Origin: an uncultured Erysipelotrichaceae bacterium
GTDB taxonomy: Bacteria; Bacillota_I; Bacilli_A; RF39; UBA660
Length of the DNA: 36,946 nucleotides
NCBI GenBank assembly: GCA_902788975.1
Contig: CADAMI010000022.1
Span: 1 to 36,946, forward strand
Direction of reading: 5' to 3'
Shown in pieces: positions 6,246 to 36,946 of the stretch. Both the position numbers and the translations under genes were made by a program. Each line of letters starts with the position of its first letter. The first letter of the stretch is position 1. The notes beneath the pieces were generated by a model that saw only the letters and a list, made by a program, of their open reading frames with translations, was not told the DNA's origin and ran no database searches.

Positions 6246-6896
6246 TTACCTCAATATATGTTCTAAATCATTTAAATAATTTTGAATATTTATGAATACC
6301 TGTGATAACGGGTATCCGTCTACAAATGCATGACTAACTGTAATATTTAGTGCCATTTTATATCTTCCATTAATAAGCTGATATTTACCAAAACATATTC
6401 TAGGGACTGATAATGATTCTTTATCATCTGGAATTGGATGTGTAAGTGCAGTAAAATCAATCCAAGGTAAACAAGTAATATAGTATTCATTAAATAAACT
6501 ACCTTCATTATATGTATCTTTAACTTTTGTTTTAACTTTAGCTTCATCAACATCATGCTTGACAGTATCATAAAATATATCAAAATTATCATTATTTTTA
6601 CTTCTAACATTTTCAAATGTCCCAGCTTCAGTCATGACGGTATATGCTGGATTTATATCATCATACATAATGATTTTATTGTTAACATACCTTATTCGCA
6701 TTTCAGGGACACTATTTAATCCTTTGACCAAAATATATAAAAAGCAAACAAAAAATGATTTTTTTTCATTTTTAATATAATTAACTAAATCAGTAACATC
6801 AATTTCTTTATTGATTGAATAAGTTGGATTACTAAATGTATTAAACCAAGTAAACTGCTTTTTTCTATTCCAAGTATCTAAATCAATTTCTTTCAT
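6246..6896 (-). CDS. chloramphenicol acetyltransferase-like O-acetyltransferase (CatA type)
   Basis: 216 residues, the length of classic trimeric CAT subunits. It opens like CAT (EIDLDTWNRKKQFTWFN), contains FVCFLYILVKGLN and LPWIDFTALTHPI, and ends with the catalytic block SHAFVDGYPLSQVF, with His189 and Asp193 in place of CAT His195 and Asp199. The first His of the usual HHAxxDG is Ser here, but the catalytic second His is kept. CAT transfers acetyl from acetyl-CoA to chloramphenicol. Many chromosomal gut homologues of this type have untested substrates, so resistance is not proven. It sits with an RluA gene among housekeeping genes, with no mobile element near. Confidence 0.88.
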   Translation of the reverse strand: MKEIDLDTWNRKKQFTWFNTFSNPTYSINKEIDVTDLVNYIKNEKKSFFVCFLYILVKGLNSVPEMRIRYVNNKIIMYDDINPAYTVMTEAGTFENVRSKNNDNFDIFYDTVKHDVDEAKVKTKVKDTYNEGSLFNEYYITCLPWIDFTALTHPIPDDKESLSVPRICFGKYQLINGRYKMALNITVSHAFVDGYPLSQVFINIQNYLNDLEHILR

Positions 6897-6935
6897 AATT
6901 CATCACCAAAATTATTGTACTAAATTTTTTTATGT

Positions 6936-6964
6936 TTGACAATAAAATACAAATGTGTTAGTAT
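6936..6964 (+). promoter_or_regulatory. sigma-A promoter of the HTH-metallophosphoesterase gene
   Basis: TTGACA (6936-6941) and TAGTAT (6959-6964) with a 17-base spacer. It excludes the upstream TTG codon at 6936 as the start, since that codon is the -35 box itself. Confidence 0.8.
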
Positions 6965-6989
6965 ATTTGCCTTGAAAGAAGCGATAACT

Positions 6990-8105
6990 ATGATGCCTAA
7001 ACAAACTGCACAAATAATTGAATTAATCAAAGAAGGAAAAACATGTAATCAAATATGTGAAGTTATGAATTTAACTAATAAACAGTTATATCTAAGACTA
7101 ATGAATTTAGAAAATAAAGGATTATTCTTTAGAAGAAAATATTATTCAGACGGTAATATTTTATATCGGCAAATTAATAAAATCCCAGTTCTAAAAGAAT
7201 ATAAAAAAGTTCCATCTGGAGAAATAATAACTAGACCAGATGAAACAGAAATTAAAGTTATAGTTATTTCAGATACTCACTTTGGAAGTAAATTAGAAAG
7301 AATAGATTTACTTGATAGAGTTTATAATTATTGCATAAATAATAATATTCATATTATTTTTAATTGTGGGGATATAATTGATGGAACATTTGGACATAAT
7401 GATAAAAGAATTAAAGATGTATACAGCCAAATTGATTATCTAATAAAAAAATATCCATTTGATAAAAATATTTTAACTTTTGCCGTTGGCGGCGATCACG
7501 ACCATAGTGCTTTAACACGCGGTTATCAAGACATAATTGAAATAATTAAAAATTATCGTCACGATTTAATATTTCAAAATTATTATAATGCTATTATTAG
7601 TATTAAAAATGAAAAAATATTATTACACCATCGTGAGCCACAAGGAAAGTTGCTTGCTGATGGAAGAACCATTGATGGTAAAGAAATAATTCCGATAGTA
7701 CTAAATGGTCATCTTCATAAATACGTAGTTGAACAAACAAAATCTGATGGAGTTGTCAATGTTTTAGTGCCATCATTATCAGACATTAATGAATCATTTC
7801 CAACTGCTCTAGAATTAACATTAACGTTTGCAAAAGGTTATATTTCAAATGCCACATTTAAACAAATTTATTTTGGCGTAAAAGACACAATAATAAGTGA
7901 AGCGAATTATGATTTAAGTAATCACCAAATTATTCCAAGACCTACTATTATGTTTGAAGAATCATATTCTTTTGATGTTAAAGAAGAAAGTGATATTGAG
8001 GATACTTCTCAAAGAATAGCGGAACAAGAAACTAAACCACTAGTAAAGAAATTAGAAAGACCAAGCCAAATAGATAGATTTAATCAAAGATATAATTTAG
8101 AATAA
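6990..8105 (+). CDS. calcineurin-like metallophosphoesterase with N-terminal HTH
   Basis: 371 residues from the ATG at 6990 (a second ATG follows at 6993), behind GAAAGAAG. Residues about 5-50 look like a helix-turn-helix (EGKTCNQICEVMNLTNKQLY). The metallophosphoesterase core follows with its metal ligands: DTHFG (95-99), GDIIDG (127-132), GGDHDHS at 167-173 in the place of the usual GNHD/E, HHR near 214, and GHLHKY at 240-245. Such enzymes hydrolyse phosphomono- or diesters with two metal ions; the substrate is unknown. The HTH suggests nucleic acid binding, but this is inference. The tail from about 320 is polar and charged. Single gene: its own promoter before, a strong terminator after. 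Confidence 0.85.
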   Translation: MMPKQTAQIIELIKEGKTCNQICEVMNLTNKQLYLRLMNLENKGLFFRRKYYSDGNILYRQINKIPVLKEYKKVPSGEIITRPDETEIKVIVISDTHFGSKLERIDLLDRVYNYCINNNIHIIFNCGDIIDGTFGHNDKRIKDVYSQIDYLIKKYPFDKNILTFAVGGDHDHSALTRGYQDIIEIIKNYRHDLIFQNYYNAIISIKNEKILLHHREPQGKLLADGRTIDGKEIIPIVLNGHLHKYVVEQTKSDGVVNVLVPSLSDINESFPTALELTLTFAKGYISNATFKQIYFGVKDTIISEANYDLSNHQIIPRPTIMFEESYSFDVKEESDIEDTSQRIAEQETKPLVKKLERPSQIDRFNQRYNLE

Positions 8106-8107
8106 TT

Positions 8108-8146
8108 AAATAAAATCATCTAAAACAACAATAGATGATTTTATTT
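8108..8146 (+). terminator. terminator after the metallophosphoesterase gene
   Basis: AAATAAAATCATCTA (8108-8122) pairs with TAGATGATTTTATTT (8132-8146), a perfect 15-bp stem with a 9-base loop. The A-rich and T-rich flanks suit termination. Confidence 0.85.
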
Positions 8147-8147
8147 A

Positions 8148-8156
8148 TGGTATAAT
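8148..8156 (+). promoter_or_regulatory. extended -10 promoter (TGGTATAAT) of the ATP-grasp gene
   Basis: TGG immediately before TATAAT (8151-8156) is an extended -10 element; no good -35 is visible. Transcription from about 8163 would leave a leader of only some 12 bases, just enough for AGGTGAT before the ATG at 8175. Confidence 0.6.
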
Positions 8157-8174
8157 ATTCACCAGGTGATGCCT

Positions 8175-9086
8175 ATGTTTAAAGAAATAATAAAAGAAAT
8201 ATGCAATGAATTAAATATTAAATACACCATTTTATCTAAAGACTGGATAATTAAATTAGAAAAAGATAATGAAGTAAGGTATTTAACAGGTAATAAATTT
8301 GATCTAAATGGTCATGCTATAGGTAATATTTTGGATGACAAATATGCCTTTTATGAAATATTAAAAAATATAAATATTCCTGTATGTCTTCATCGGATTA
8401 TTTATCACAAAAATAATAACCAGTCTTATGCCATCGGATGTAACACTGAAGAATATATTCTTAATTGTTTTAATGAATTTCATAATGATGTAGTCATAAA
8501 ACCCAATAAAGGATCCATGGGCATAGGTGTACATCATATAACAAATAAAGATGAATTAATTAATATAACAAATAATTTATTAATTAATAATTATTCCATC
8601 AGTATCTGTCCATATTATCATATTAAAAATGAATACCGAGTTATTGTTTTAGATAATGAAATAAAATTAATATATAAGAAAATCAACCCAATAGTTATAG
8701 GCGATGGTAAAAGTACTCTAAAAGAATTATTAATAAAGTTTAATTATAATTATTATATTGATAAAGATGTCCTTAACATTATTCCAAATAAAAATGAAAT
8801 AATTACTCACGATTTTCATTTCAATTTATCAAAGGGAAGTATAGCTACTATAGATATTGACTATGATACAAAAGAAAAAATATGCCAGTTAGCACTAGAG
8901 GTATCAAAGAAAGTAGGTATTACTTTTGCTAGTATTGATATTATTGAAACAACAAATAATGAATTATTGGTTCTTGAAGCTAATAGCGGAGTTACTATTA
9001 ACAAAGCTACCAACTTTATTCCTAATGGTTATAATGTTGCCAAAGAGATTTATAAAGAAGCAATTCTAAGAATGTTTGATAAATAA
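8175..9086 (+). CDS. ATP-grasp domain protein (carboxylate-amine/peptide ligase type)
   Basis: 303 residues. The start is set at the ATG at 8175, which has AGGTGAT at the right distance; GTG (8166) and ATG (8169) upstream lie inside that SD. ATP-grasp landmarks: VVIKPNKGSMGIGVH (106-120, ATP-binding Lys109 and glycine loop), CPYYHIKNEYRVIVLDNEI (145-163), IGDGKSTLKELL, and the Mg-binding LVLEANSGVTIN (265-276, Glu268 and Asn270). The IGDGKSTLKELL segment resembles cyanophycin-synthetase/GshF-type ligases. It probably joins a carboxylate to an amine via an acyl phosphate; the substrates are unknown. It is flanked by terminators and stands alone, so context gives no substrate. Confidence 0.8.
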   Translation: MFKEIIKEICNELNIKYTILSKDWIIKLEKDNEVRYLTGNKFDLNGHAIGNILDDKYAFYEILKNINIPVCLHRIIYHKNNNQSYAIGCNTEEYILNCFNEFHNDVVIKPNKGSMGIGVHHITNKDELINITNNLLINNYSISICPYYHIKNEYRVIVLDNEIKLIYKKINPIVIGDGKSTLKELLIKFNYNYYIDKDVLNIIPNKNEIITHDFHFNLSKGSIATIDIDYDTKEKICQLALEVSKKVGITFASIDIIETTNNELLVLEANSGVTINKATNFIPNGYNVAKEIYKEAILRMFDK

Positions 9087-9111
9087 AACACTTAATTTTT
9101 TATTAAGTGTT
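9087..9111. terminator. bidirectional hairpin between the convergent ATP-grasp and DUF5011 genes
   Basis: AACACTTAAT (9087-9096) and ATTAAGTGTT (9102-9111) form a perfect 10-bp stem with a T-rich loop. The T tract is better on the minus strand (TTTTATTT). Confidence 0.75.
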
Positions 9112-9117
9112 CTAATA

Positions 9118-10317
9118 TTATAATTCACCTTTGTGATATTTATACATTAAATTTGCTAAATTGTTTATTATTTCTTGTTTATTATCATTACCATGATTTG
9201 TTAAAATTACAATAATATATGGTTCGTTATCGAGAACAATTCCAACGTCATGATAATACTGACCATAATAACCATATTTATGCATAACTGATAAATTATT
9301 TATTTTTAAATAGTTTCCATAATCATTAATAAAAAATGATTTTAATTCTTCATTATTTTTAGTAATATTATATAATTTCTTTAAATATACAATTTGATCA
9401 TTAACTGTCGTGTTTCCAAAATTATCATCTCCAGCTAGTGTGTTCTTTGCACCTAGATTTATACCATAATTTTTAAGATTATCTCTTCCAATATAATTAA
9501 CTAAATACTGGTGAGCATTATTATCGCTAACTGATATGGCTTTTTCAACGTAAGACTTTGTTGAATCGTTTATTAAATTATTATCGTATAAATAAATAGC
9601 ATCTAGTGTTTTTATTAAACTGGCTCCATAATATATTTTATTTTCCCTATATAAAAACTTTTTATTTGTAATCAAATTGTAGTATCCAATAGAAACGTCA
9701 TAATTATGTTCTTTTACATATTTTACTATTGAATTATTTATATCTTCAAAGCCATAATTTGATACCATGTTTTTGTTTTGAACAATCACTTTTCGGGTAA
9801 CCTTATTTTCGTTTCCTGATGAATCTTTAGCAGAATAAACTATTGAATATTCTCCTTCTTTTGTCGTATCAAGATTACTTTCAATTATAATATTATCAGT
9901 AATATCTTTATCATAATTATCAATAGCTACAGCACCTTCATCTATAAATGTATCTCCAACATATATTTTTATTTCATCATCACCATTAAGTTCTATACTT
10001 GGGGGAGTATTATCAACAACATTTATTTCTCTTCTTAATAAATATTTATGCCATAGAAATTTTAAACTATAATTAATATTATAATTACCAACTATACTTG
10101 TATTTAAATTGTTAAATATTTTCACTTTTTTACTAATATCATAGTTAAAGATAGAGGCAATATAACCATATTCTATATAGGTTTCATTCAAGTTAAGATA
10201 TAATTTGTTATCTCCTTTAAGCTTAAAAACGACATTCATTTTAAAAATAAAAATGACACTTATAAATATAATAGTAACCATCATTAACGATATGATAAAT
10301 TTTCGAAGATTTTTCAT
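9118..10317 (-). CDS. membrane-anchored DUF5011 Ig-like plus beta-lactamase-like serine hydrolase
   Basis: 399 residues. One transmembrane helix (about 8-28) anchors it, with the rest outside. Two Ig-like repeats follow: a degenerate one at about 38-102 and a clear DUF5011 one at 105-180 (VGDTFIDEGAVAIDNYDKDIT, then SIVYSAKDSSGNENKVTR). The C-terminal half has the serine penicillin-recognising motifs: GASLIK with Ser233 and Lys236, SDN at 264-266, and HKYG (346-349) where KTG/KSG is usual. This matches class A beta-lactamase-like hydrolases. With Tyr instead of Thr/Ser in the third motif, true beta-lactam hydrolysis is uncertain and a wall-related function is as likely. SD AAGGTG before the ATG; single gene. 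Confidence 0.82.
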   Translation of the reverse strand: MKNLRKFIISLMMVTIIFISVIFIFKMNVVFKLKGDNKLYLNLNETYIEYGYIASIFNYDISKKVKIFNNLNTSIVGNYNINYSLKFLWHKYLLRREINVVDNTPPSIELNGDDEIKIYVGDTFIDEGAVAIDNYDKDITDNIIIESNLDTTKEGEYSIVYSAKDSSGNENKVTRKVIVQNKNMVSNYGFEDINNSIVKYVKEHNYDVSIGYYNLITNKKFLYRENKIYYGASLIKTLDAIYLYDNNLINDSTKSYVEKAISVSDNNAHQYLVNYIGRDNLKNYGINLGAKNTLAGDDNFGNTTVNDQIVYLKKLYNITKNNEELKSFFINDYGNYLKINNLSVMHKYGYYGQYYHDVGIVLDNEPYIIVILTNHGNDNKQEIINNLANLMYKYHKGEL

Positions 10318-28183: not shown

Positions 28184-30679
28184 ATGATAAAAATATTTAA
28201 AAAGTTATTCGATAATGAATATAAAGAACTAAAAAGATTTAATGCTATTGCTGAAAAAATAGATGCTCTAGATCCAGAATATACAAAAATGACAGATAAA
28301 CAGTTAGCAGCTAAAACAGATGAATTTAAAGAAAGACTAGCAAATGGTGAAACGCTTGAAGATATTTTAGTCGAAGCTTTCGCTACAATTAGAGAAGTTG
28401 CTTATAGATTAATTGGTGAAAAAGCTTACTTTGTTCAATTACTTGGTGGACTAGCTATTCACTATGGTAATATTGCCGAAATGAAAACTGGTGAAGGTAA
28501 AACTTTAACAACTATTTTTCCAGCCTATTTAAATGCTTTGGAAGGAAAAGGCGTACACGTTGTTACAGTTAATGAATATCTAACTCAAAGAAATGCTGAA
28601 TGGATGGGACCAATTTTTAACTTTTTAGGTTTAACAGTTGGTGTTAATTTAAGAAGTTTATCACCAAAAGAAAAACAAGAAGTATATAACTGTGATATTA
28701 CATATACAACTAATAACGAATTAGGATTCGATTATCTTAGAGATAACATGGTTGTAAGAAAAGAAGATCGAGTATCTAGAAAATTAAACTACTGTATTAT
28801 CGACGAAGTCGACTCAGTTTTAATTGATGAAGCTAGAACACCATTAATTATTTCTGGTGGAGTAATGCAAAATGTTAACTTATATGAACAAGCTGATATG
28901 TTTGCTAAAAGCTTAAAAGAGAATGTTGATTATATTAAAGATGAAAAGACTAGAACTATTAGCTTAACAGACGAAGGTAGTCATAAATGCGAAAAAGTAT
29001 TTAAAATAGATAATCTTTATGATATTAACAATACAGCTTTAGTTCATCACATTAACTTAGCCCTAAAAGCAAATTACTTTATGAATAGAGATGTTGATTA
29101 TGTCGTTCAAGAAGGACAAGTTATTATCGTTGACCAATTTACAGGACGCTTAATGCCAGGAAGAGCTTTCTCTGAAGGACTTCATCAAGCTATCGAGGCT
29201 AAAGAAAATGTTAAAGTTAATGAAGAAACTAAAACATTAGCTACCATTACTTTCCAAAATCTATTCAGAATGTATAATAAACTATCAGGTATGACAGGTA
29301 CTGCTAAAACAGAAGAAGAAGAATTTAGAAATATTTATAATATGTATGTTATAACTATTCCAACCAATAAACCAGTAATAAGAGTTGATGCTACTGATTT
29401 ATTGTATTCAAATAAACAGGGAAAATATAATGCTATTGTTAGAGTAATTAAAGAAAGACATGCTCTAGGTCAACCAATTCTTGTTGGTACTATTGCTATT
29501 GAAACTAGTGAATTAATCAGTAAAATGTTAACTAAAGAAAAAATACCTCATGAAGTATTAAATGCTAAAAACCATGCTCGTGAAGCTGAAATTATTGCCC
29601 ATGCTGGTGAAAAAGGCGCAGTTACAATCGCAACAAACATGGCTGGTCGTGGAACCGATATCAAACTTGGCCCTGGTGTTAAAGAATTAGGTGGACTTTG
29701 TGTAATAGGTACAGAAAGACATGAATCTAGAAGAATAGATAATCAGTTAAGAGGACGTGCTGGTAGACAAGGAGATCCTGGATTTAGTCAATTCTTTGTC
29801 TCATTTGAAGATGATTTATTAGTAAGATTTGGTTCTGATAAATACAAATCAATGATGGAAAGTATTGGATTTACTGGAGATCAAGCAATTAGAAATAATA
29901 TGTTTGCCAAAACCGTAGAAACGGCTCAAAAAAGAGTTGAAGGTAATAACTTTGATATCAGAAAACATCTTCTAAGTTATGACGATGTCATGAATAATCA
30001 AAGAACTATTATCTATGAAAAAAGAAATGAAATATTAGATAATGATTCAATTCATGAAACAGTACTTAATGGTTTTAAAGAACACATCACAAACTTAGTA
30101 ATGTCTCATTTAATCGAATCAAAGAAATTATCTGATAATGATTATGATGAAATAATCGAAGCTGCTAATGAAAATCTATTAAAGAAATATAAAATAACAC
30201 CATCAGAAATTAAAAATAAAGAATCTGAAGAAGTAATTGATATAATTTATGATAAAGTAGTAACTGATTATCAAGATAAATTAAAAGATATTCCTGAAGA
30301 AGTAGTTAATGAATTTGAAAAAGCTATTTCTCTAAGAGTAATTGACTCTAACTGGATGGATCATATCAGTACCATGAGTCACTTACGTGAAGGAGTAGGA
30401 CTAAGAGGATATGCCAATGAAAATCCACTTCAAGCATACACTATGGAAGGATATCAATTATTTGATAACATGTTAAATAAAATAAATAGTGAAATATCTA
30501 CATACTTATTAAAATCTGAAATAAGACAAAATACTGAAAGAAAAACAGTAGCTAAAAAAATGATTACCAACGATGGTAAAGATGCCATTAAAACTCAAAA
30601 GAAAAGTGACAAAGTTGGTAGAAATGATCCATGTCCATGTGGCAGTGGCAAGAAGTATAAACAATGTTGTGGTAAATAA
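28184..30679 (+). CDS. secA: preprotein translocase ATPase SecA
   Basis: 831 residues, standard SecA1 length. Walker A MKTGEGKTL (100-108), Walker B-like IIDEVDSVLIDEARTPLI near 203, preprotein cross-linking domain, second nucleotide-binding fold with NMAGRGTDIKLG and QLRGRAGRQGDPG, and scaffold and wing domains. It ends in the SEC-C zinc motif CPCGSGKKYKQCCGK (Cys3-type), which binds partners and phospholipid. SecA drives secretory proteins through SecYEG; secDF lies 10 kb upstream. SD AGGAAGTGA. The 3' end matters for this window: two relics of the same tail occur downstream at 35512 and 36807. Confidence 0.98.
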   Translation: MIKIFKKLFDNEYKELKRFNAIAEKIDALDPEYTKMTDKQLAAKTDEFKERLANGETLEDILVEAFATIREVAYRLIGEKAYFVQLLGGLAIHYGNIAEMKTGEGKTLTTIFPAYLNALEGKGVHVVTVNEYLTQRNAEWMGPIFNFLGLTVGVNLRSLSPKEKQEVYNCDITYTTNNELGFDYLRDNMVVRKEDRVSRKLNYCIIDEVDSVLIDEARTPLIISGGVMQNVNLYEQADMFAKSLKENVDYIKDEKTRTISLTDEGSHKCEKVFKIDNLYDINNTALVHHINLALKANYFMNRDVDYVVQEGQVIIVDQFTGRLMPGRAFSEGLHQAIEAKENVKVNEETKTLATITFQNLFRMYNKLSGMTGTAKTEEEEFRNIYNMYVITIPTNKPVIRVDATDLLYSNKQGKYNAIVRVIKERHALGQPILVGTIAIETSELISKMLTKEKIPHEVLNAKNHAREAEIIAHAGEKGAVTIATNMAGRGTDIKLGPGVKELGGLCVIGTERHESRRIDNQLRGRAGRQGDPGFSQFFVSFEDDLLVRFGSDKYKSMMESIGFTGDQAIRNNMFAKTVETAQKRVEGNNFDIRKHLLSYDDVMNNQRTIIYEKRNEILDNDSIHETVLNGFKEHITNLVMSHLIESKKLSDNDYDEIIEAANENLLKKYKITPSEIKNKESEEVIDIIYDKVVTDYQDKLKDIPEEVVNEFEKAISLRVIDSNWMDHISTMSHLREGVGLRGYANENPLQAYTMEGYQLFDNMLNKINSEISTYLLKSEIRQNTERKTVAKKMITNDGKDAIKTQKKSDKVGRNDPCPCGSGKKYKQCCGK

Positions 30680-30720
30680 CTCGTAAAGTCCCATAAATAA
30701 AGGGAAAACACGAGTTTTTC
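30678..30720 (+). terminator. secA terminator
   Basis: AACTCGT (30678-30684) pairs with ACGAGTT (30710-30716); inner CCC and GGG extend it; a T-rich tail follows. The inner part GTAAAGTCCCATAAATAAAG is nearly repeated in the terminator at 36855-36892. Confidence 0.85.
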
Positions 30721-30848
30721 TTTTTCTAAAAAACACTTAAAAAAAGACTTTAGATCAGTTTTAGATCATTATATTTTTAAAAGGTAAAATAAGGGAATAT
30801 ATAAATCGGAAAATAGTAATATTGCGAGCAAATGTAAAAAATCGTTTT

Positions 30849-30877
30849 TTGTCATATAAGAATAAATAAAGTATGAT
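30849..30877 (+). promoter_or_regulatory. promoter of the zinc-peptidase candidate
   Basis: TTGTCA (30849-30854), 17 bases, TATGAT (30872-30877), with TATAAT overlapping at 30877-30882. It starts with the same TTGTCATATAAG string as the promoter at 143. The rest of the 246-base gap after secA holds only the terminator and the doubled TTTAGATCA motif near 30753-30772. Confidence 0.6.
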
Positions 30878-30925
30878 ATAATTATATGGGATATTTAATA
30901 ATAATTAGTAATAAAGAGGTGTGAT

Positions 30926-32299
30926 ATGAAAAAAAATAAAAATTTAAAATGCATATTTATTATTATATTAATACTAATTGGAATTGTTTTATTCAGAAGT
31001 AATGGAAATATAATTAAAATAGAAACTATTAATAAAAAATACCAAGATATTCTTGATGATAAAATTTATTTGAAAAATATTGAATCTAATGATATTATTG
31101 CTAAAGAAGATATTAATGATAATTATATTAGCTATGCATTATTAGACTTAGATAATGATACGGTAGAAGAACTAATAATAAGAATAAACAATGGTAGTGA
31201 TTTTGAAATTAATATGTTTTATACAATAATTAATAAAAAAATAAAGTATATTGGTAAATTAACGCATTATGGTATTCTTGCTTATAATAAAAATGAAAAT
31301 GCAATCACATATAGCATAGAAAGACCAAGTTTAATTTATGGGCAAATATTAAAATATGATGAACTTAAAGACAATAAATTTAATAATGTTAAGAATCTAG
31401 TAGTAGATATTGATGAAAATGACAATTATATTTATTATTTTACTAATTCTCAAGGAAGCGATAAAACAATTATAAGTGAAGACGAATATAGCAAATACAT
31501 CGATGATAATAAAGTAATTGAATTTAAAGATATTGTTAAAAGTAATATTGATAATCAAGAAGAAAACAAAATGTTTGGTTCAATAAATGGTACTGCCGAT
31601 ACAATTGATGGTAAAACAATAATTGTTTCAATTTATGCAGATGACTATGGAACTAAATGGGATTTTAATAAAGACAAGGAAAGAATTGAAGATACATTTG
31701 ATAATTTAAAAATTGCTACCGAATATTTAAAAGAGCAAGTAAAAAAATATGGTAAAAACGCTACATTTATATATGATTGGGAAAAAAATTCTGATTTGAA
31801 ATATGAAGCCCAATTTACTGATGATATCGTGGCTTTGAATGGAAATTATGAGCTTCAAAGAGAATGGATTGTTAATAATATTGATATTGATAAACTTATT
31901 AACAAATATAAAGCCGATAATATTATTTTTATGTTTTTCTTTAATAACAAGGAATTCAAATTACATTCGGCATATACCTATAACAAATTTGATATAGAAT
32001 TAATTAATATGTTTTTACAAGAAGCCGAAGGAGATACATATCCAGCAACATATGCACACGAAATAATGCATACCTTTGGCGCACCTGATCTCTATATGGA
32101 AAATGATATAATTAATGAAGATTATATTAATTATTTGATTGATATTAATTCAAATGACATAATGCGTACAATATCTCCAGGTAAAGAAATTACGAATACT
32201 TTTTCATCATTAGACGCTTATTATGTAGGATTAATTAATAGCCATGAAGATATTGAAAAATGGAATTTAGGTATAAGCGAACATTTAATAGAAAATTAA
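30926..32299 (+). CDS. membrane-anchored zinc metallopeptidase candidate
   Basis: 457 residues. One N-terminal helix (about 8-24) anchors it, and the rest is outside. An N-terminal domain has YALLDLDNDTVEELIIRI (about 70-87), like the 24449 protein. A middle part follows (GTADTIDGKTIIVSIYADDY). The C-terminal peptidase region has YAHEIMHTFGAPDLY with HEIMH at 378-382. The HExxHxxGxxD arrangement (third ligand Asp386 or so) is that of metzincin/M6-like zincins. It also has DIMRTISPGKEI, which could be a Met-turn region. The family is not certain. SD AAAGAGGTGTGAT. It is the first gene of the accessory zone behind secA. Confidence 0.75.
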   Translation: MKKNKNLKCIFIIILILIGIVLFRSNGNIIKIETINKKYQDILDDKIYLKNIESNDIIAKEDINDNYISYALLDLDNDTVEELIIRINNGSDFEINMFYTIINKKIKYIGKLTHYGILAYNKNENAITYSIERPSLIYGQILKYDELKDNKFNNVKNLVVDIDENDNYIYYFTNSQGSDKTIISEDEYSKYIDDNKVIEFKDIVKSNIDNQEENKMFGSINGTADTIDGKTIIVSIYADDYGTKWDFNKDKERIEDTFDNLKIATEYLKEQVKKYGKNATFIYDWEKNSDLKYEAQFTDDIVALNGNYELQREWIVNNIDIDKLINKYKADNIIFMFFFNNKEFKLHSAYTYNKFDIELINMFLQEAEGDTYPATYAHEIMHTFGAPDLYMENDIINEDYINYLIDINSNDIMRTISPGKEITNTFSSLDAYYVGLINSHEDIEKWNLGISEHLIEN

Positions 32300-32308
32300 T
32301 ATCAAAAA

Positions 32309-32348
32309 CTATGGTATAAAATTATTCAAGAGTGAGGTAATACCATAG
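32309..32348. repeat. 9-bp inverted repeat around a promoter-like stub
   Basis: CTATGGTAT (32309-32317) and ATACCATAG (32340-32348) are exact inverted copies around 22 bases that contain a GTGAGG SD-like string. On the minus strand the second arm is followed by TTTTTG, so it could terminate minus transcription. Confidence 0.6.
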
Positions 32349-32475
32349 AAAAATTATTAAGATAATGAGATTGGATGAGAATTGCTTTTCGTTTGGTATA
32401 ATAAAAAAGGTAAAAGAGATGGATAATAGATTATTATAAAATAATCGCAATATTAAGATATTAGGAATTGAGAAA
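32312..32475 (+). other. two orphan promoter-SD stubs without genes
   Basis: TGGTATAAA (32312-32320) is followed by AGTGAGG and then CCATAG where an ATG would be expected, so no reading frame opens. TGGTATAAT (32394-32402) is followed by AAAGAG and ATGGATAATAGATTATTATAA, a six-residue frame. Both look like the 5' ends of genes of the kind found at 33797 and 34553 whose bodies have been lost, perhaps when the IS arrived at 32476. Confidence 0.45.
32472..32475. repeat. left target-site duplicate GAAA of the IS
   Basis: GAAA at 32472-32475, repeated at 33677-33680 directly outside the other end of the IS, as expected for an IS3-family insertion (3-5 bp duplications). Confidence 0.65.
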
Positions 32476-32509
32476 TGAAGTGAACCCCATTTTGAAGTGA
32501 ACCCCATTT
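32476..32509 (+). repeat. tandemly doubled left terminus of the IS
   Basis: TGAAGTGAACCCCATTT occurs at 32476-32492 and again at 32493-32509. The outer copy touches the GAAA target duplicate, so the doubling came with or after insertion. Confidence 0.9.
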
Positions 32510-32575
32510 TGGACACTTTAAAAAAAAGAACTTTTGATATAAAATAACATCTCAAGAAAGTGAGGTGTTATTTTT

Positions 32576-32860
32576 GTGGCAAAAAAAGGTCAAAAATATA
32601 ATAAATATTCTTATGAATTAAAAATGGAAATTATTAATAAATATTTAAATAGTGATGGTGGTTATGCTTCTTTATCAAAGGAATACAATATTCCATATAA
32701 GACGATTGATATGTGGATTTATCAATATAAACATTTAAATCACGATATGAAAAATCATAAAAAAGGTAGAAAAAAAGAAGAAAATATAGATTATAAAGAA
32801 AGATATGAAATATTAAAAAAATACCAAGCCTTCCTAAAGGCACAACGAGAGAGAAAGTAA
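32576..32860 (+). CDS. IS3-family transposase OrfA (HTH)
   Basis: 94 residues starting at GTG 32576 behind GTGAGGTG. A helix-turn-helix lies at about 10-50 (YSYELKMEIINKYLNSDGGY, then LSKEYNIPYKTIDMWIYQYK), then a basic hinge KNHKKGRKKEE and a coiled coil ending ILKKYQAFLKAQRERK. The codons tta-aaa-aaa-tac (32813-32824) contain the heptamer A-AAA-AAA, the classic site at which this family shifts to the -1 frame to make OrfAB. Confidence 0.85.
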   Translation: MAKKGQKYNKYSYELKMEIINKYLNSDGGYASLSKEYNIPYKTIDMWIYQYKHLNHDMKNHKKGRKKEENIDYKERYEILKKYQAFLKAQRERK

Positions 32861-32885
32861 CATTTATAAATTTATATATTAATAA

Positions 32886-33629
32886 ATAAGTAGACGAACT
32901 TATTATAAATATAGGAATGCTGATGATCCAGATTATATAGATTATTTAATGATTAAAAATATATTTAATAAATCTAAAGGCACATATGGATATCGAAGGA
33001 TAACCGAAGGCTTAAAGATTGAATATGGTGTAATATTTAATCACAAAAAGGTAGCTAGAATAATGAAAAAATATTATTTAAAACCGAAATATATAAAGAG
33101 AACAAGACCAAATACTTATAAAAGAATTGAAGAAAATGTTCAACCTAATATATTAAAAAGAAATTTTAAAGCTGATAAACCAAATCAAAAATGGACAACT
33201 GATATTACGTATTTGATATTTCAAAACAAACGGTTATATTTATCTACAATTTTAGATTTATATGATAGAAAAGTAGTTTCATATAAAATATCAAGGTTTA
33301 ATAATAATCAATTAGTTGTTGATACATTGAATGAAGCTATTTCAAAAAGAAAAGATGTACATGGACTTATCATTCACAGTGATCAAGGATTCCAATACAC
33401 ATCTTTTGAATACAAATCCATTTGTAAATCTAATGGAATTACTATTTCTATGTCTAGGAAAGGTACCCCAATAGATGATTCACCAATGGAAAGTTGGCAT
33501 GGTATCTTAAAAAAAGAAACCTTGCACAATAATAATATCACATCTTTACAAGAATACCAAAAACTTGTAGAAGATTGGATATTATTTTACAACACAACCA
33601 GATTAAAGTCAAAAAAGTCCAAAAAATAA
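32886..33629 (+). pseudogene. IS3-family transposase OrfB (DDE integrase), N-terminus disrupted
   Basis: After a -1 shift in orfA the frame reads REKVTFINLYINK and stops at TAA 32887-32889. The family text resumes in another frame at 32886 as ISRRTYYKYRNADDPDY and continues to 33629. By comparison with IS150-like OrfB, a dozen or so codons (the rest of the N-terminal HTH) are missing between the two pieces, and the frame is broken there. The rve core is intact: TTDITYL (first Asp), HSDQGFQYTS (second Asp), MESWHGILKKE (Glu). It ends KSKKSKK, earlier than the usual ...LSPxxYR tail. The first ATG in frame is at 32949 (226 residues). Confidence 0.8.
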
Positions 33630-33648
33630 TCTTGGGCTTCCTTTTTAT
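33615..33648 (+). terminator. terminator at the end of the IS
   Basis: AAGTCCAA (33615-33622) pairs with TTGGGCTT (33632-33639) with one T-G pair, followed by CCTTTTTATTT. It overlaps the end of orfB. Confidence 0.6.
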
Positions 33649-33676
33649 TTATGTGAACTATTTGGGGTTCACTTCA

Positions 33677-33680
33677 GAAA
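33677..33680. repeat. right target-site duplicate GAAA of the IS
   Basis: GAAA directly after the terminal CACTTCA of the IS; matches 32472-32475. Confidence 0.65.
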
Positions 33681-33740
33681 TCAGCTCCTTTTTTAGTAAT
33701 CTTACGATTATCAAGTTAATGAAAAAATGACTAGGTTTTA

Positions 33741-33749
33741 TGGTATAAT
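33741..33749 (+). promoter_or_regulatory. extended -10 promoter (TGGTATAAT)
   Basis: TGG before TATAAT (33744-33749), with no -35 of note. Same element as at 8148, 34516 and 35847. Confidence 0.55.
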
Positions 33750-33796
33750 TATTATGAAACAAAATGATAAATAGTAATTTAAAAGTGAGGTATTAT

Positions 33797-34393
33797 ATGA
33801 AAAAATACAAGATATTAATTATATCAATTTTGACTTTGATTATATCATTTGTTAGAAGTTGGTATTCAGATTTTTTGTTTGACAAATTATTTATATTTTA
33901 TATTATTCCAAATTTATTATTATTTGTACTATTTAACTATTGCTTTATAACAAGTTTAATAAAAATAGTAAAAGAACGTAAATTAATAAATGTTGTAAGT
34001 ATAATAGTATTATTGTGTTCAGTTTTATTATTTTTCTTTTTTCCTTTTAGAAAAGTAAAAACAAATTATGAATTAAATAGTTTTGAAAAAGCACGCTTGG
34101 AAATTATTGACAAGATTATTTATAATGAATTAAAACCTGATGATTTTGGAAATGTAAAATTGCCTAAAGAGTACAAAAAATACTCTATGAGTGGAGAGGT
34201 AACAATTTATCAAAATGATAAAGAAGGTCAAGTAATTTGTTTTTGGATTTTTAGAGGTATGCAATCAGGCTCAGTCCAATTAATGTATTCTACTGGGGGA
34301 GAAAAGTTAATAAAAGATAATGAAAATGGACATCCTATAATAAATATAGAAAAACTTAAGGATAACTGGTATTATGTTGAAACAGATTATTAA
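33797..34393 (+). CDS. membrane protein of unknown family
   Basis: 198 residues from the ATG at 33797, seven bases after GTGAGG; an ATG at 33764 would add 11 residues but has no SD. Three membrane helices: about 5-23, 28-52 and 64-84 (LINVVSIIVLLCSVLLFFFF). A C-terminal domain of about 110 residues follows, with YELNSFEKARLEIIDKII, KLPKEYKKYSMSGEVTIY and QVICFWIFRGMQSGSVQLMY. The last block looks like beta strands (WIFRGMQSG...LMYSTG). I do not recognise it. It is the first gene right of the IS and has its own promoter. Confidence 0.65.
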   Translation: MKKYKILIISILTLIISFVRSWYSDFLFDKLFIFYIIPNLLLFVLFNYCFITSLIKIVKERKLINVVSIIVLLCSVLLFFFFPFRKVKTNYELNSFEKARLEIIDKIIYNELKPDDFGNVKLPKEYKKYSMSGEVTIYQNDKEGQVICFWIFRGMQSGSVQLMYSTGGEKLIKDNENGHPIINIEKLKDNWYYVETDY

Positions 34394-34449
34394 ATTACAA
34401 TTTATTAACCTAATCGTACTATTAAGATTTTACGAGCATTCATTATGAC

Positions 34450-34476
34450 TGCTTTTTACATAAGTTTTTACATACG
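34450..34476 (+). repeat. direct repeat DR1, copy 1
   Basis: TGCTTTTTACATAAG followed by TTTTTACATACG, before the Ig-like gene. Copy 2 (35381-35408) is the same with one more T. The end part CTACATACGTTTT recurs at 36933-36945. Confidence 0.8.
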
Positions 34477-34515
34477 ATGTAACAATTAATAAATTGGAAA
34501 AAACAAAATAGAAAT

Positions 34516-34524
34516 GTGGTATAA
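34516..34524 (+). promoter_or_regulatory. extended -10 promoter (TGGTATAAT)
   Basis: TGG before TATAAT (34519-34524). A weak -35, TTGGAA (34494-34499), lies 19 bases upstream. Confidence 0.55.
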
Positions 34525-34552
34525 TTAAAGTGAAATGTAGGAGTGTGAGGTT

Positions 34553-35380
34553 ATGAAGAAAAGTATTAAAATAGCATTAATTGTTATAGGGACTTTATTA
34601 ATAGCATTAAGCATAATAGTCTTAGTAACAAGATTAGATTCTAAACTAAAAGAAGTAAATGTGTATGCCACATCAGAAGTAGAAAATGTTAGTGCAACTA
34701 TATCTGATATTTCGCTAACGGGAGCAACAATTACAATAAAAGATAGAAATTCCACTAAATATACATATGGAGAATGGTATGTAATACAAAAAGAAGAAAA
34801 TGGAAAATGGTACAACATTTCAACTAAAGTTAAAGAATATGGTTTTAATTCCATCGGATATGAAGTTGATGAAAATAATGAAGTGAAATTTGTTATTGAT
34901 TGGGAATGGTTATATGGAAAATTGCCACAAGGAAGTTATAGAATTATTAAAGAATCGCATAATAAGTATATTTCAATACCATTTAATATAGCAGAAACAC
35001 AAAGTTCCAAAAAAGAGAATATAAACCTAAATTTATTTGATAGAAGTGAAATTATAAAAGTAGTAATTGATAATTACTCACAATATAAAAATAATTTCGA
35101 ATATACAGATAAAGATACTATTGATAAGGTTTATAATTTGTTTAAAAATTTAAAAACAAATGTAGCAAGTAAGAGTGATGAGCCAGAGAATCCTGAAGAA
35201 TTATACAAAGTAACTTTTTTCAATAGTGAAAATATGCTAATAGAAAGTGACAATGATATTTTTAAAGCAATCGTATATTTATATAAAAGAGATAATAAAT
35301 ATTATGTAGAAGAACCCAAAAATGGAATTTATGAAGTAACAGAAGAAACTTTTAACAATATCAAAAACTATGCTAAATAA
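34553..35380 (+). CDS. membrane-anchored Ig-like (Big_14 type) plus DUF5301-like protein
   Basis: 275 residues. An N-terminal helix (about 5-26) anchors or exports it. Residues about 40-155 form a bacterial Ig-like domain of the Big_14 kind: TYGEWYVIQKEENGKWYNIS, then FVIDWEWLYGKLPQGSYRI (the DWxxxYGxLxxGxYRI signature). Residues about 170-275 resemble DUF5301: DTIDKVYNLFKNLKTNVASK, KVTFFNSENM, and the end block RDNKYYVEEPKNGIYEVTEE. Both are known in Bacillota surface proteins, with no assigned role that I know of. SD GTGTGAGG. The stop is followed directly by the second copy of DR1, so the gene is bracketed by DR1 copies. Confidence 0.78.
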   Translation: MKKSIKIALIVIGTLLIALSIIVLVTRLDSKLKEVNVYATSEVENVSATISDISLTGATITIKDRNSTKYTYGEWYVIQKEENGKWYNISTKVKEYGFNSIGYEVDENNEVKFVIDWEWLYGKLPQGSYRIIKESHNKYISIPFNIAETQSSKKENINLNLFDRSEIIKVVIDNYSQYKNNFEYTDKDTIDKVYNLFKNLKTNVASKSDEPENPEELYKVTFFNSENMLIESDNDIFKAIVYLYKRDNKYYVEEPKNGIYEVTEETFNNIKNYAK

Positions 35381-35408
35381 TGCTTTTTTACATAAGTTTT
35401 TACATACG
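35381..35408 (+). repeat. direct repeat DR1, copy 2
   Basis: TGCTTTTTTACATAAG followed by TTTTTACATACG, starting at the base after the TAA of the Ig-like gene. It differs from copy 1 by one T. Confidence 0.8.
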
Positions 35409-35511
35409 TTTTGTTGGAATTATTAGACAAATTTAAGTTATAGAAAATATAAATTCTTTGTAATTTCGATAAAAAAATTGTAAAAAGTGCAGAAAAATTG
35501 TAGTTTCTACA

Positions 35512-35556
35512 CCATGTGGATCCGGGAAGAAGTATAAAAACTGCCATGGAAGATAA
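35512..35556 (+). pseudogene. SEC-C tail relic A
   Basis: Fourteen codons and a stop read PCGSGKKYKNCHGR, the standard SEC-C zinc motif that ends SecA (CPCGSGKKYKQCCGK in the intact gene here). Upstream codons in frame (KCRKIVVST) retain only faint likeness to the SecA text VGRND, and there is no start or SD. A terminator follows 13 bases after the stop. It is a fragment, either of a copy of the secA 3' end or of another SEC-C protein. Confidence 0.7.
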
Positions 35557-35569
35557 TAAAAACATTTAT

Positions 35570-35598
35570 AAAGCCCAGTAATTACGGGCTTTTTTTTG
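35570..35598 (+). terminator. terminator behind SEC-C relic A
   Basis: AAAGCCC (35570-35576) pairs with GGGCTTT (35586-35592); inner GTA/TAC adds pairs; a run of T follows to 35597. Confidence 0.8.
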
Positions 35599-35618
35599 CT
35601 CCGAAAACTTCAGAATAA

Positions 35619-35675
35619 TTTTTAGATACCTTTTTGGATACCTTCCGCTGAGTATCTAAAAGGTATCTAGATACC
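35619..35675. repeat. direct repeat DR2 copy 1 within a large inverted repeat
   Basis: TTTAGATACCTTTTT then GGATACCTTCCGCT (35621-35649) is the first DR2 copy; the second is at 36698-36727. AGATACCTTTT (35624-35634) and AAAAGGTATCT (35658-35668) are inverted copies, with GATAC/GTATC inside, so a long hairpin of some 16 pairs is possible. GGTATCTAGATACC (35662-35675) is itself a palindrome. There is no T tract after it. The remaining 35676-35846 holds only short palindromes (GCAAAAATTTTGC at 35693) and no gene. Confidence 0.75.
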
Positions 35676-35846
35676 CAAAAATGGGGTAAAAATGCAAAAA
35701 TTTTGCACGGCTAAAATTCATGACATTTTCTTTATTTATAAGGCTTTGCAAAGATTTTACTTTCAAAAAAAGATGAAAATGTGTCCAGTACCAAAATGAC
35801 ATTGGTAAGCGAGTTTAAAACATTTAATATTAAATAAAGAATAATA

Positions 35847-35855
35847 TGGTATAAT
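35847..35855 (+). promoter_or_regulatory. extended -10 promoter (TGGTATAAT) of the YunG-Ada gene
   Basis: TGG before TATAAT (35850-35855), then AGAGGG and the ATG at 35873. Confidence 0.6.
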
Positions 35856-35872
35856 GTTTATAAGAGGGTTTT

Positions 35873-36654
35873 ATGGAAATAAGTAAACTAAAACAATTAC
35901 TAATTCAATCTTGGAATTTGGAAACATGTTCACCAGGATTAAGAGATAAATGGAGTGAAGAAAATCCATCATTAGGACAGTGTGCAATTACAGCTCTAAT
36001 AGTAAATGATTTCTTTGGCGGAAAGATTATGAGATGTATGGCATCATCTGGAAGTCATTACTACAATATAATAGATGATTAACAGTAGAACAATTTTTAG
36101 GAGAAATTCCCCAATATGAAAATGGTGAAGAAAGAACAAGAGAATACTTGTTAAATAACAAAGATACAAAAAATAGGTATGAGAAATTACTTTATAATTT
36201 AAAACAGTCACTTAGACAGTTTCAAGGCAAACAGTTCAGATTAATTGATCGCAATGGACAAGAGTATTTGAGTAATACTCCAGGAACATTAGGTGGCAAT
36301 AGAAAATTAAAAATATATGGAAGACTTGACTGCCCATCAGCCAAAAGATGGATTGAAAAAGGTTATTATATTTCTAACAGAGTTTTTTTTGAAAATGAAG
36401 ACATAGCAATTGCTGCCGGATATCGTCCATGTGCAAAATGTATGCCTGATAAATATAAAGAGTGGAAAAATGACCAAATAAAAAAAAATAGATTTCAAAT
36501 GTGTGTTGATCAAAGAACACAATTTATGTCAGAAGAAGTTTCACAAGAATTTAGAGATCTTTTACAATTATGTAGTAACCAACTTTATCTTGATGATAAC
36601 CAACTTTATCTTGATGATGATGGAATGGTAAAACAGAAGAAGAAAAAATTATAA
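35873..36654 (+). pseudogene. YunG-like protein fused to an Ada-type zinc domain, broken by a one-base deletion
   Basis: The first frame (35873-36082, 69 codons) has the YunG pattern: SWNLETCSP, WSEENPSLGQCAITALIVND, FFGGKI, HYYNIIDD, then TAA. At 36077-36084 the text GATTAACA lacks one T; with GATTTAACA it would continue DDLTVEQFLGEIPQYENGEE, as YunG proteins do, into the second frame. That frame runs to 36654 and contains an Ada-like zinc domain: IYGRLDCPSAKRW, then NRVFFENEDIAIAAGYRPCA and KCM. This keeps Cys at three Ada positions, with Lys at the fourth. Ada zinc domains bind DNA phosphates or zinc; YunG has no known role. Near the end NQLYLDD occurs twice through an exact 21-bp duplication. 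Promoter and SD look intact, so the break is recent or a sequencing error. Confidence 0.75.
36577..36618 (+). repeat. exact 21-bp in-frame tandem duplication
   Basis: AACCAACTTTATCTTGATGA plus T occurs at 36577-36597 and again at 36598-36618, doubling NQLYLDD without breaking the frame. Confidence 0.95.
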
Positions 36655-36697
36655 AAATTGCAATACAAAAAATATTCGAAAAATGCTAATTTTTGAA

Positions 36698-36727
36698 TTT
36701 TAGATACCTTTTTAGATACCTTCTGCT
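36698..36727 (+). repeat. direct repeat DR2, copy 2
   Basis: TTTTAGATACCTTTTT then AGATACCTTCTGCT, differing at two positions from copy 1 (35620-35649). The two copies bracket the YunG-Ada gene. A hairpin CCGAG/CTCGG (near 36735-36749) follows, in an unusually GC-rich patch to 36800. Confidence 0.8.
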
Positions 36728-36806
36728 AGGATTCCCGAGTGCTCTCGGAAGCTAAAAAGGGCAAAAAATGGCTCCCAAACGCCCTCAAAAGCCCAAAAAC
36801 TAAAAT

Positions 36807-36851
36807 CCATGTGACAGCGGATTGAAGTATAAAAACTGTCATGGCAAATAG
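36807..36851 (+). pseudogene. SEC-C tail relic B
   Basis: Fourteen codons and a TAG read PCDSGLKYKNCHGK, a SEC-C motif with two changes (G to D, K to L). No start or SD upstream. It is closer to the secA locus in what follows: GTAAAGCCCCGCAAATAAAAG directly mirrors GTAAAGTCCCATAAATAAAG after secA. Confidence 0.7.
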
Positions 36852-36861
36852 CCTAGTAAAG

Positions 36862-36892
36862 CCCCGCAAATAAAAGGATTGCGAGGTTTTTT
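36862..36892 (+). terminator. terminator behind SEC-C relic B
   Basis: CCCCGCAA (36862-36869) pairs with TTGCGAGG (36879-36886) with one mismatch, then six T. The sequence is homologous to the secA terminator. Confidence 0.8.
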
Positions 36893-36946
36893 CCCTTTCA
36901 AAAAAGTTGTAATTTTTTTTCAAAAAAGTGCCTCTACATACGTTTT
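36893..36946 (+). other. right edge: start of another repeat unit
   Basis: After the terminator the text (CCCTTTCAAAAAAG) resembles the stretch behind the secA terminator. CTACATACGTTTT (36933-36945) matches the end of DR1 copy 2 (TTACATACGTTTT). The repeat series may go on beyond the window. No gene is visible here. Confidence 0.5.

Follow-up and report, generated by a model that had tools for sequence, protein, structure and literature searches.

The 3′ end of secA in an uncultured Erysipelotrichaceae bacterium probably serves a family of temperate phages as attachment site, and the DNA behind it is best read as a series of satellite-like gene cassettes that have phage ends, lack an integrase and were inserted one after another. 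The stretch analysed here, called the window, is the entire 36,946-nucleotide contig C22 of this genome, and all features described lie on its forward strand. The host gene secA (28184-30679) is an open reading frame (ORF) of 831 amino acids (aa) with orthologues in 38 of 40 relatives. Its last codons encode the SEC-C zinc motif PCGSGKKYK..C, and this stretch, the core, occurs at 30635, 35512, and 36807, followed each time by a terminator. The first copy (30635-30679, PCGSGKKYKQCCGK and stop) is the functional end of secA. The displaced copies at 35512-35556 (PCGSGKKYKNCHGR and stop) and 36807-36851 (PCDSGLKYKNCHGK and stop), which encode the last residues of SecA (TPCGSGKKYKNCHGR and NPCDSGLKYKNCHGK, each with its stop codon), had been missed in a preliminary description of this DNA. 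No further SEC-C core is present between 30635 and 35512 in the window, and the displaced cores form the junctions between units 1 and 2 and between units 2 and 3.

In every displaced copy examined, PCGSG is the precise point at which homology to SecA sets in, and the zinc motif CxCx8C[CH] is kept in 57 of the 57 secA ends examined. The predicted terminator right after the secA stop codon, an inverted repeat with a T run (30681-30718), would have been brought in with unit 1, and the one 3′ of the first displaced core (35573-35598) could be aligned in 10 cassettes. A fourth SEC-C copy in the same genome lies near the end of another contig (C25:16118), together with the stretch of terminator DNA found immediately behind secA in the relative G006. 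C25 has downstream genes in common with the distal end of the G004 array and so probably represents the distal end of the array that begins in the window.

Of 193 genomes of the family, 163 showed the SEC-C codon pattern, about 70 of them with two or more matches, some of which may belong to other SEC-C proteins. In the loci that we read, 27 genomes hold 50 core-to-core units, with up to eight behind one secA (G079). The 36 units below 3 kb have a median length of 1.6 kb, and most hold one gene; 35 of them have no integrase. Larger units, mostly above 3 kb, carry Tn916-like integrases in 10 cases. The conserved downstream gene is prfB, which secA directly adjoins in G116, an empty site, and from which it is separated by units in G011 and G125. 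Contigs of relatives often break within about 1.3 kb past secA, as is expected of a variable, repeated site. The stepwise gain of one-gene units that the preliminary description had proposed is supported, and species differ in which unit they hold.

Units also carry pairs of direct repeats, the arms, about 126 bp before the core on the left end and 55-87 bp after the core on the right end. Arm types, classified by hand from short motifs, agree between the right and left ends in 33 of 46 units, as against a permutation mean of 5.8 (0 of 20,000 permutations reached 33). The small class alone shows agreement in 23 of 29 units (7.7 by permutation), with types that differ between units. Small units have arms mostly of the GATACC, GATAAG, GATACG, GATACA, CATACG, GAGCCA or GATC type; those of the larger units are of the GTGCAC, GTCCAC or GTTTGC type. 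As judged from sequence, a core with direct arm repeats on both sides has the attP layout of a tyrosine integrase in the style of lambda or Tn916.

Two repeats of this kind, DR1 and DR2, were the basis of the preliminary description, and both are present at the positions it gave, including a partial copy at the window end. DR1 (TTTTTACATAAGTTTTTACATACG) is exact over 24 nt at 34453-34476 and 35385-35408, inside a longer match of 27-28 nt from 34450 and 35381; base 35381 is the first after the stop codon of the ORF at 34553-35380. The window ends within a third DR1-like copy, and its final bases (36935-36946) match the last 12 nt of DR1. DR2 spans 30 nt at 35620 and 36698 with two differences. 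Each is a 12-nt tandem pair, and the two are about 75% alike. Since they stand at a fixed distance from the core, match within a unit and resemble the repeats beside phage integrases, DR1 and DR2 look like integrase arm-type sites. They lie inside the units, and their proposed role as unit boundaries is not supported; the boundaries are the secA-derived cores.

The preliminary description had further suggested that recombination could use the repeats to lose or swap genes. That DR1 and DR2 are ordinary intergenic repeats between which homologous recombination added or removed genes is a reading that we consider very unlikely. Two direct copies do flank each gene, and the DR1 pair at 34453 and 35385, with no core between, could reflect such a deletion. 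However, the repeats are only 24-30 bp long, absent elsewhere, variable between units and fixed in their distance from the cores, and the ends of units compared across genera fall in the core and not in the repeats. That description had named one outcome as counting against it, namely DR1 and DR2 being common throughout the genome, and this is not what we found. A search of the 1.23-Mb genome gave no other copies except one DR1 match with 3 mismatches (reversed-pattern controls gave 0 matches), and DR1 is present in only 5 of 186 family genomes, so the two were rejected as genome-wide repeats. All DR1 places with a core visible in the flanks are in the secA array (G000, G079, G143, and G094); two short DR1 contigs of G112 could not be placed.

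A search of viral contigs with the DR2 arm pair led to two prophage contigs. In the first (G213, 40 kb), secA and its core lead into a terminator, TTTAGATACC tandem arms, and the genes of a tyrosine integrase (376 aa) and of a CI-like repressor; at its far end, past tail, lysis, and restriction genes, stand a left end of the DR2 type and another core. The second (G214) has the order secA, DR2-type cassette, core, and prophage with GATAAG arms. Relatives of the G213 integrase in viral and bacterial contigs are found beside GATACC, GATACG, GATAAG, GAGCCA, and GATCC/GATCA arms, mostly next to a secA core, and all of these arm types also occur on cassettes. Because the same cores and arm types stand beside phage-family integrases, we read the small cassettes as carrying the attachment ends of secA-targeting phages. 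The closest solved relatives of the G213 integrase are the Int proteins 6en0 and 6emy, the Tn1549 integrase. Searches of phage and plasmid record collections gave no useful match.

Host enzymes are a far less convincing source of the array. Xer-like recombinases are present in every genome searched and are the only PF00589 proteins of several array genomes, but we think it highly improbable that Xer built the array at a dif-like core, as in integrative mobile elements exploiting Xer (IMEX). Tandem arms of 11-12 bp at set positions to either side of the core are what an arm-binding integrase would use, and in phage contigs such arms accompany a Tn1549-like integrase. Two other candidates for the cassette integrase were rejected: the phage-type integrases of 370-400 aa elsewhere in array-only genomes, which have no core nearby, and the Tn916-like integrases of larger secA elements, whose arms (GTCCAC, GTGCAC, GTTTGC) differ from those of small units. 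Seven loci (L048 5272, L134 2115, L135 2094, L137 4446, L149 5440, L052 4512, and L124 1800, positions in oriented loci) have the reading frame of this Tn916-like integrase interrupted at one common point, where it shifts by -1 in a stretch of eight A and meets a stop after another 3-4 codons. This may be a case of programmed frameshifting in a tyrosine integrase.

Comparison between genomes indicates that units are shared by site-specific movement and not by descent. G018 and G125, which belong to different genera, have a 962-bp cassette with one GNAT acetyltransferase gene in common that is 100% identical between them; their secA ends are about 84% alike, and the flanks of the cassette are divergent. 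The identity starts and stops in a 14-bp core (CCTTGTGGAAGTGG), and from this coincidence of its ends with the core we conclude that the cassette moved as a unit. Likewise, a larger integrase-bearing element is 97-99% identical in G090 and G073. Its start falls at core base 12 in each, although it adjoins secA in one case and follows a small cassette in the other.

These comparisons bear on whether the small units are still mobile. They could be passive remnants of secA prophages or of integrative and conjugative elements (ICEs), with one cargo gene and the att ends left and now immobile. The unit ends are the same as those of the prophage contigs, as remnants would have them, and decay is visible in the broken gene of unit 2, in the fused and interrupted unit 1, and in the mixed arm types of some units. 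We nevertheless regard this origin as unlikely. The identity of the integrase-less 962-bp cassette across genera implies that it moved after losing any integrase. Unit sizes are concentrated between 0.8 and 3 kb, and phages in partial decay are almost lacking. In addition, DR2 cassettes from 9 genomes or contigs, although they differ in cargo, have in common a right-end module of about 150 bp that is not at phage right ends, so the cassettes form a lineage of their own.

A second question is whether cassettes travel only in cis, with a prophage inserted next to a cassette and both packaged together through recombination between the outermost cores. This is conceivable, and we give it an appreciable but clearly smaller probability than the reading with which we opened. 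The order in G214 is what it would predict, mobilization in cis by accretion is known for cis-mobilizable elements (PMC5704250), and an extra 1-2.5 kb would presumably fit the packaging slack. On the other side, neither at the G018 locus nor at the G125 locus did we detect a phage-family integrase next to the shared cassette, and the match of arms within a cassette is not required by cis transfer alone.

Taking secA as a phage attachment site and the units as cassettes, we propose the following course of events. A phage tyrosine integrase would recombine the 3′ end of secA, as attB, inside the opening 14 bp or so of the SEC-C codons (CCWTGTGGNAGTGG), and its putative binding sites would be the tandem arm-type repeats of 11-12 bp that flank the attP core on either side. 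A cassette would be a non-autonomous element with the same attP ends and no integrase. Its right end would hold the rest of SEC-C, the stop codon, a terminator, and arm repeats; its middle, one gene with its own promoter; and its left end, arm repeats about 126 bp before the core. Each integration would give secA a new in-frame tail and terminator and push older units away, building the array. The phage integrase would excise and integrate cassettes in trans, by way of an attP circle, or carry them in cis beside a prophage, and phage particles would take them from cell to cell. Action in trans, the attP circle, and carriage in particles are steps that we infer, and a cis route in which phage and cassette leave together may coexist with the trans route.

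Several points weigh against this reading. We found no integrase beside arms of the DR1 type (CATACG), and a search of viral contigs gave no such arms. The genome of the window (70.6% complete) holds only two Xer-like recombinases of about 300 aa, and there is therefore no helper in its assembled part; a dedicated integrase was also searched for, and not found, at the secA locus of array-only genomes. Mismatched arm types occur in 6 of the 29 small-class units, unit 1 of the window included, and some units must therefore be fused or decayed. All genomes are metagenome bins, and excision, circles, and transfer of cassettes have not been observed.

Unit 1 (30635-35512) is a fused or decayed composite and not a clean one-gene unit. 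Its right arms (TTTAGATCAGT TTTAGATCATT, 30749-30770, with an 11-bp period) are of the GATC type and its left arms of the DR1 type, and it holds three genes, an IS3-like insertion sequence (IS), and an inner DR1 without a core. The first gene (30926-32299, 457 aa) belongs to no Pfam family. It is followed by the IS3-like element (32476-33676, inverted repeats TGAAGTGAACCCC and GGGGTTCACTTCA), which has a split transposase with HTH_Tnp_1 and rve domains and a left inverted repeat that is doubled (32476 and 32493). The second gene (33764-34393) has no Pfam family over the cut-off. Next comes the inner DR1 copy (34453-34476), an arm repeat at a boundary from which core and terminator have been lost, and then a gene with Big_14 (Ig-like) and DUF5301 domains (34553-35380). 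The preliminary description had taken this DR1-bracketed gene as one unit; with no core on its left, it is instead part of the fused, partly decayed unit 1. The left-end module (35381-35511), made of the DR1 arm pair at 35385-35408 and about 100 bp up to the core, is 90% identical to the left end in G164 and 81% to that in G079. The last 392 nt of the Ig-like/DUF5301 gene together with DR1 are 95% identical in G143 (L157 3275-3666), where the 5′ part of the gene is different. The G143 gene (L157 3037-3630) is a chimera, with a 5′ part like the cargo at L056 7063 and a 3′ DUF5301 part like the window gene.

Unit 2 (35512-36807) has the sequence organization of a standard DR2 cassette. Its right-end module contains DR2 copy 1, a direct arm pair with an inverted pair (GAGTATCTAAAAGGTATCTAGATACC, 35619-35676), and is 76-86% identical in G002, G004, G060, G073, G079, G164, G051, and the G214 cassette. 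The left-end module (36655-36806, with DR2 copy 2 at 36698-36727) is 82-94% identical to left ends in G164, G002, G004, G060, and G079 and in the prophage G213 and the phage contig L214. Start and stop codons were considered as the exact joints of the modules but rejected, as alignment puts the end of the right module about 100 bp before the ATG in most cassettes and the start of the left module shortly past the stop. Within the right-end module (35652-35790), inverted repeats are conserved across cassettes (the inverted arm pair, TACAAAAATTTTGTA, CTTTGCAAAG, and TGTCC..GACA) and are possible excisionase or repressor sites.

The cargo of unit 2 is a YunG/Ada zinc-binding gene (35873-36654; PF24585 and PF02805). 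DR2 copies do flank it, as had been described, but a change of frame near 36079 breaks its coding sequence into two ORFs in different frames (35873-36082 and 36148-36654). It also contains an exact 21-bp tandem duplication (36576-36617, NQLYLDD twice). Homologues of this gene sit elsewhere in other genomes, for example in G164:C2. The promoter-like sequence TGGTATAAT precedes it at 35847-35855 and two other genes at 33741 and 34517; it is a consensus match only and occurs at four other places in the window. Of unit 3, the contig holds the start of a right-end arm repeat of the DR1 type (36935-36946), in a form (TACATACGTTTTACATACG) that is also found in L144 and L145.

Across the family, small units carry acetyltransferases, a methyltransferase, radical SAM, NUDIX/HD, and nucleotidyltransferase proteins, ThrRS, peptidase M3, a flavodoxin-like protein, and an HD hydrolase. 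Defence-type cargo includes a retron Ec107-like reverse transcriptase with an ATPase, ApeA/HEPN with NERD, and Schlafen AlbA_2. The retron Ec107-like reverse transcriptase, with an AAA ATPase, is carried by a 2.5-kb cassette without integrase (L146 of G060, 6662-9192, oriented). No transfer genes are among the cargo listed. Extra aminoacyl-tRNA synthetases (ThrRS-like, MetRS-like, and of the TrpRS/TyrRS family) are found at L144 11104-13534, L150 310-2764, and L048 3719-4708 and are perhaps resistant copies against a synthetase inhibitor.

Among known systems, the secA cassettes fall between cis-mobilizable elements (CIMEs) and phage satellites. CIMEs occur in tandem accretions, for example in ICESt1-related islands (PMC5704250), and like them the cassettes are flanked by attL and attR, have lost the integrase, and have accumulated next to a gene's 3′ end through successive site-specific integrations. 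Cores and arms stand at both ends of the units, a 14-bp core repeat bounds the shared cassette, and 35 of the 36 units below 3 kb have no integrase. The layout of G214 allows cis-mobilization by an adjacent element. As to an origin by decay of ICEs or of integrative and mobilizable elements, the unit ends match prophages rather than ICEs, and the right-end module is cassette-specific. Unlike CIMEs, the cassettes have temperate-phage ends, mostly one gene (median 1.6 kb), and a right-end module of their own, and one is identical across genera without an integrase. The window units, with one to three cargo genes and the IS only, hold no structural phage genes and are not prophages.

Phage satellites, such as phage-inducible chromosomal islands (PICI), P4-like satellites, and phage-inducible chromosomal minimalist islands (PICMI), encode their own integrase and excision factors and usually replication genes (PMC10803314). 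They are several kb or more in length, 7-20 kb according to PMC13376191. The cassettes share with them a helper phage biology, anti-phage cargo, and a site-specific place in the chromosome, and G213 and its relatives have the same core, arm types, and left end. However, they are 0.8-3 kb long and have no integrase, excision or replication genes. Because known satellites encode their own integrase (PMC10803314), the cassettes are not members of that group, yet they may work like satellites.

Integron gene cassettes and clusters of attC sites lacking integron-integrases (CALINs; PMC11389934) are also arrays of single-gene cassettes without an integrase that a tyrosine recombinase shuffles in trans. 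The secA cassettes differ in having a double-sided attP with arms, set apart from attC by its description, a target in the coding end of secA, a promoter in each cassette, and no integron integrase, and thus resemble integron arrays in outcome and not in sites. The ssrA-specific genomic islands of Dehalococcoides are in tandem, about half without an integration module (PMC3146451), and are likewise stacked beside one essential gene and bounded by copies of its 3′ end, but they use a serine recombinase, are larger, target tmRNA, and do not have phage ends. In the literature searched we found nothing on secA as a phage attachment site or on such an array, except for the group B Streptococcus ICE between uvrB and secA (PMC12441131); this absence is not proof of novelty. 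That element also integrates next to secA but is a conventional ICE, and the passage on it describes no SEC-C core or cassette array.

We see about an even chance that the cassettes are a phage-driven counterpart of the integron: an integrase-less lineage of single-gene cassettes with phage attP ends that borrows, in trans, the integrases of secA-targeting temperate phages. Through it a whole bacterial family would assemble expressed arrays of genes, for defence among other things, behind an essential gene, and each insertion would rebuild the tail of that gene's protein. If cassettes of about 1 kb do move with borrowed phage integrases, few gene-carrying mobile elements so far described would be smaller, and tools based on integrases or transposases are likely to miss them. 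An extra copy of the SEC-C codons would be a mark of past insertion, and the arrays could therefore be read as an ordered record. The question of how islands without an integrase move would become directly testable with one integrase and one cassette. If true, this would explain the spread of single defence, resistance-like or metabolic genes among gut Bacilli without a recognisable mobile element.

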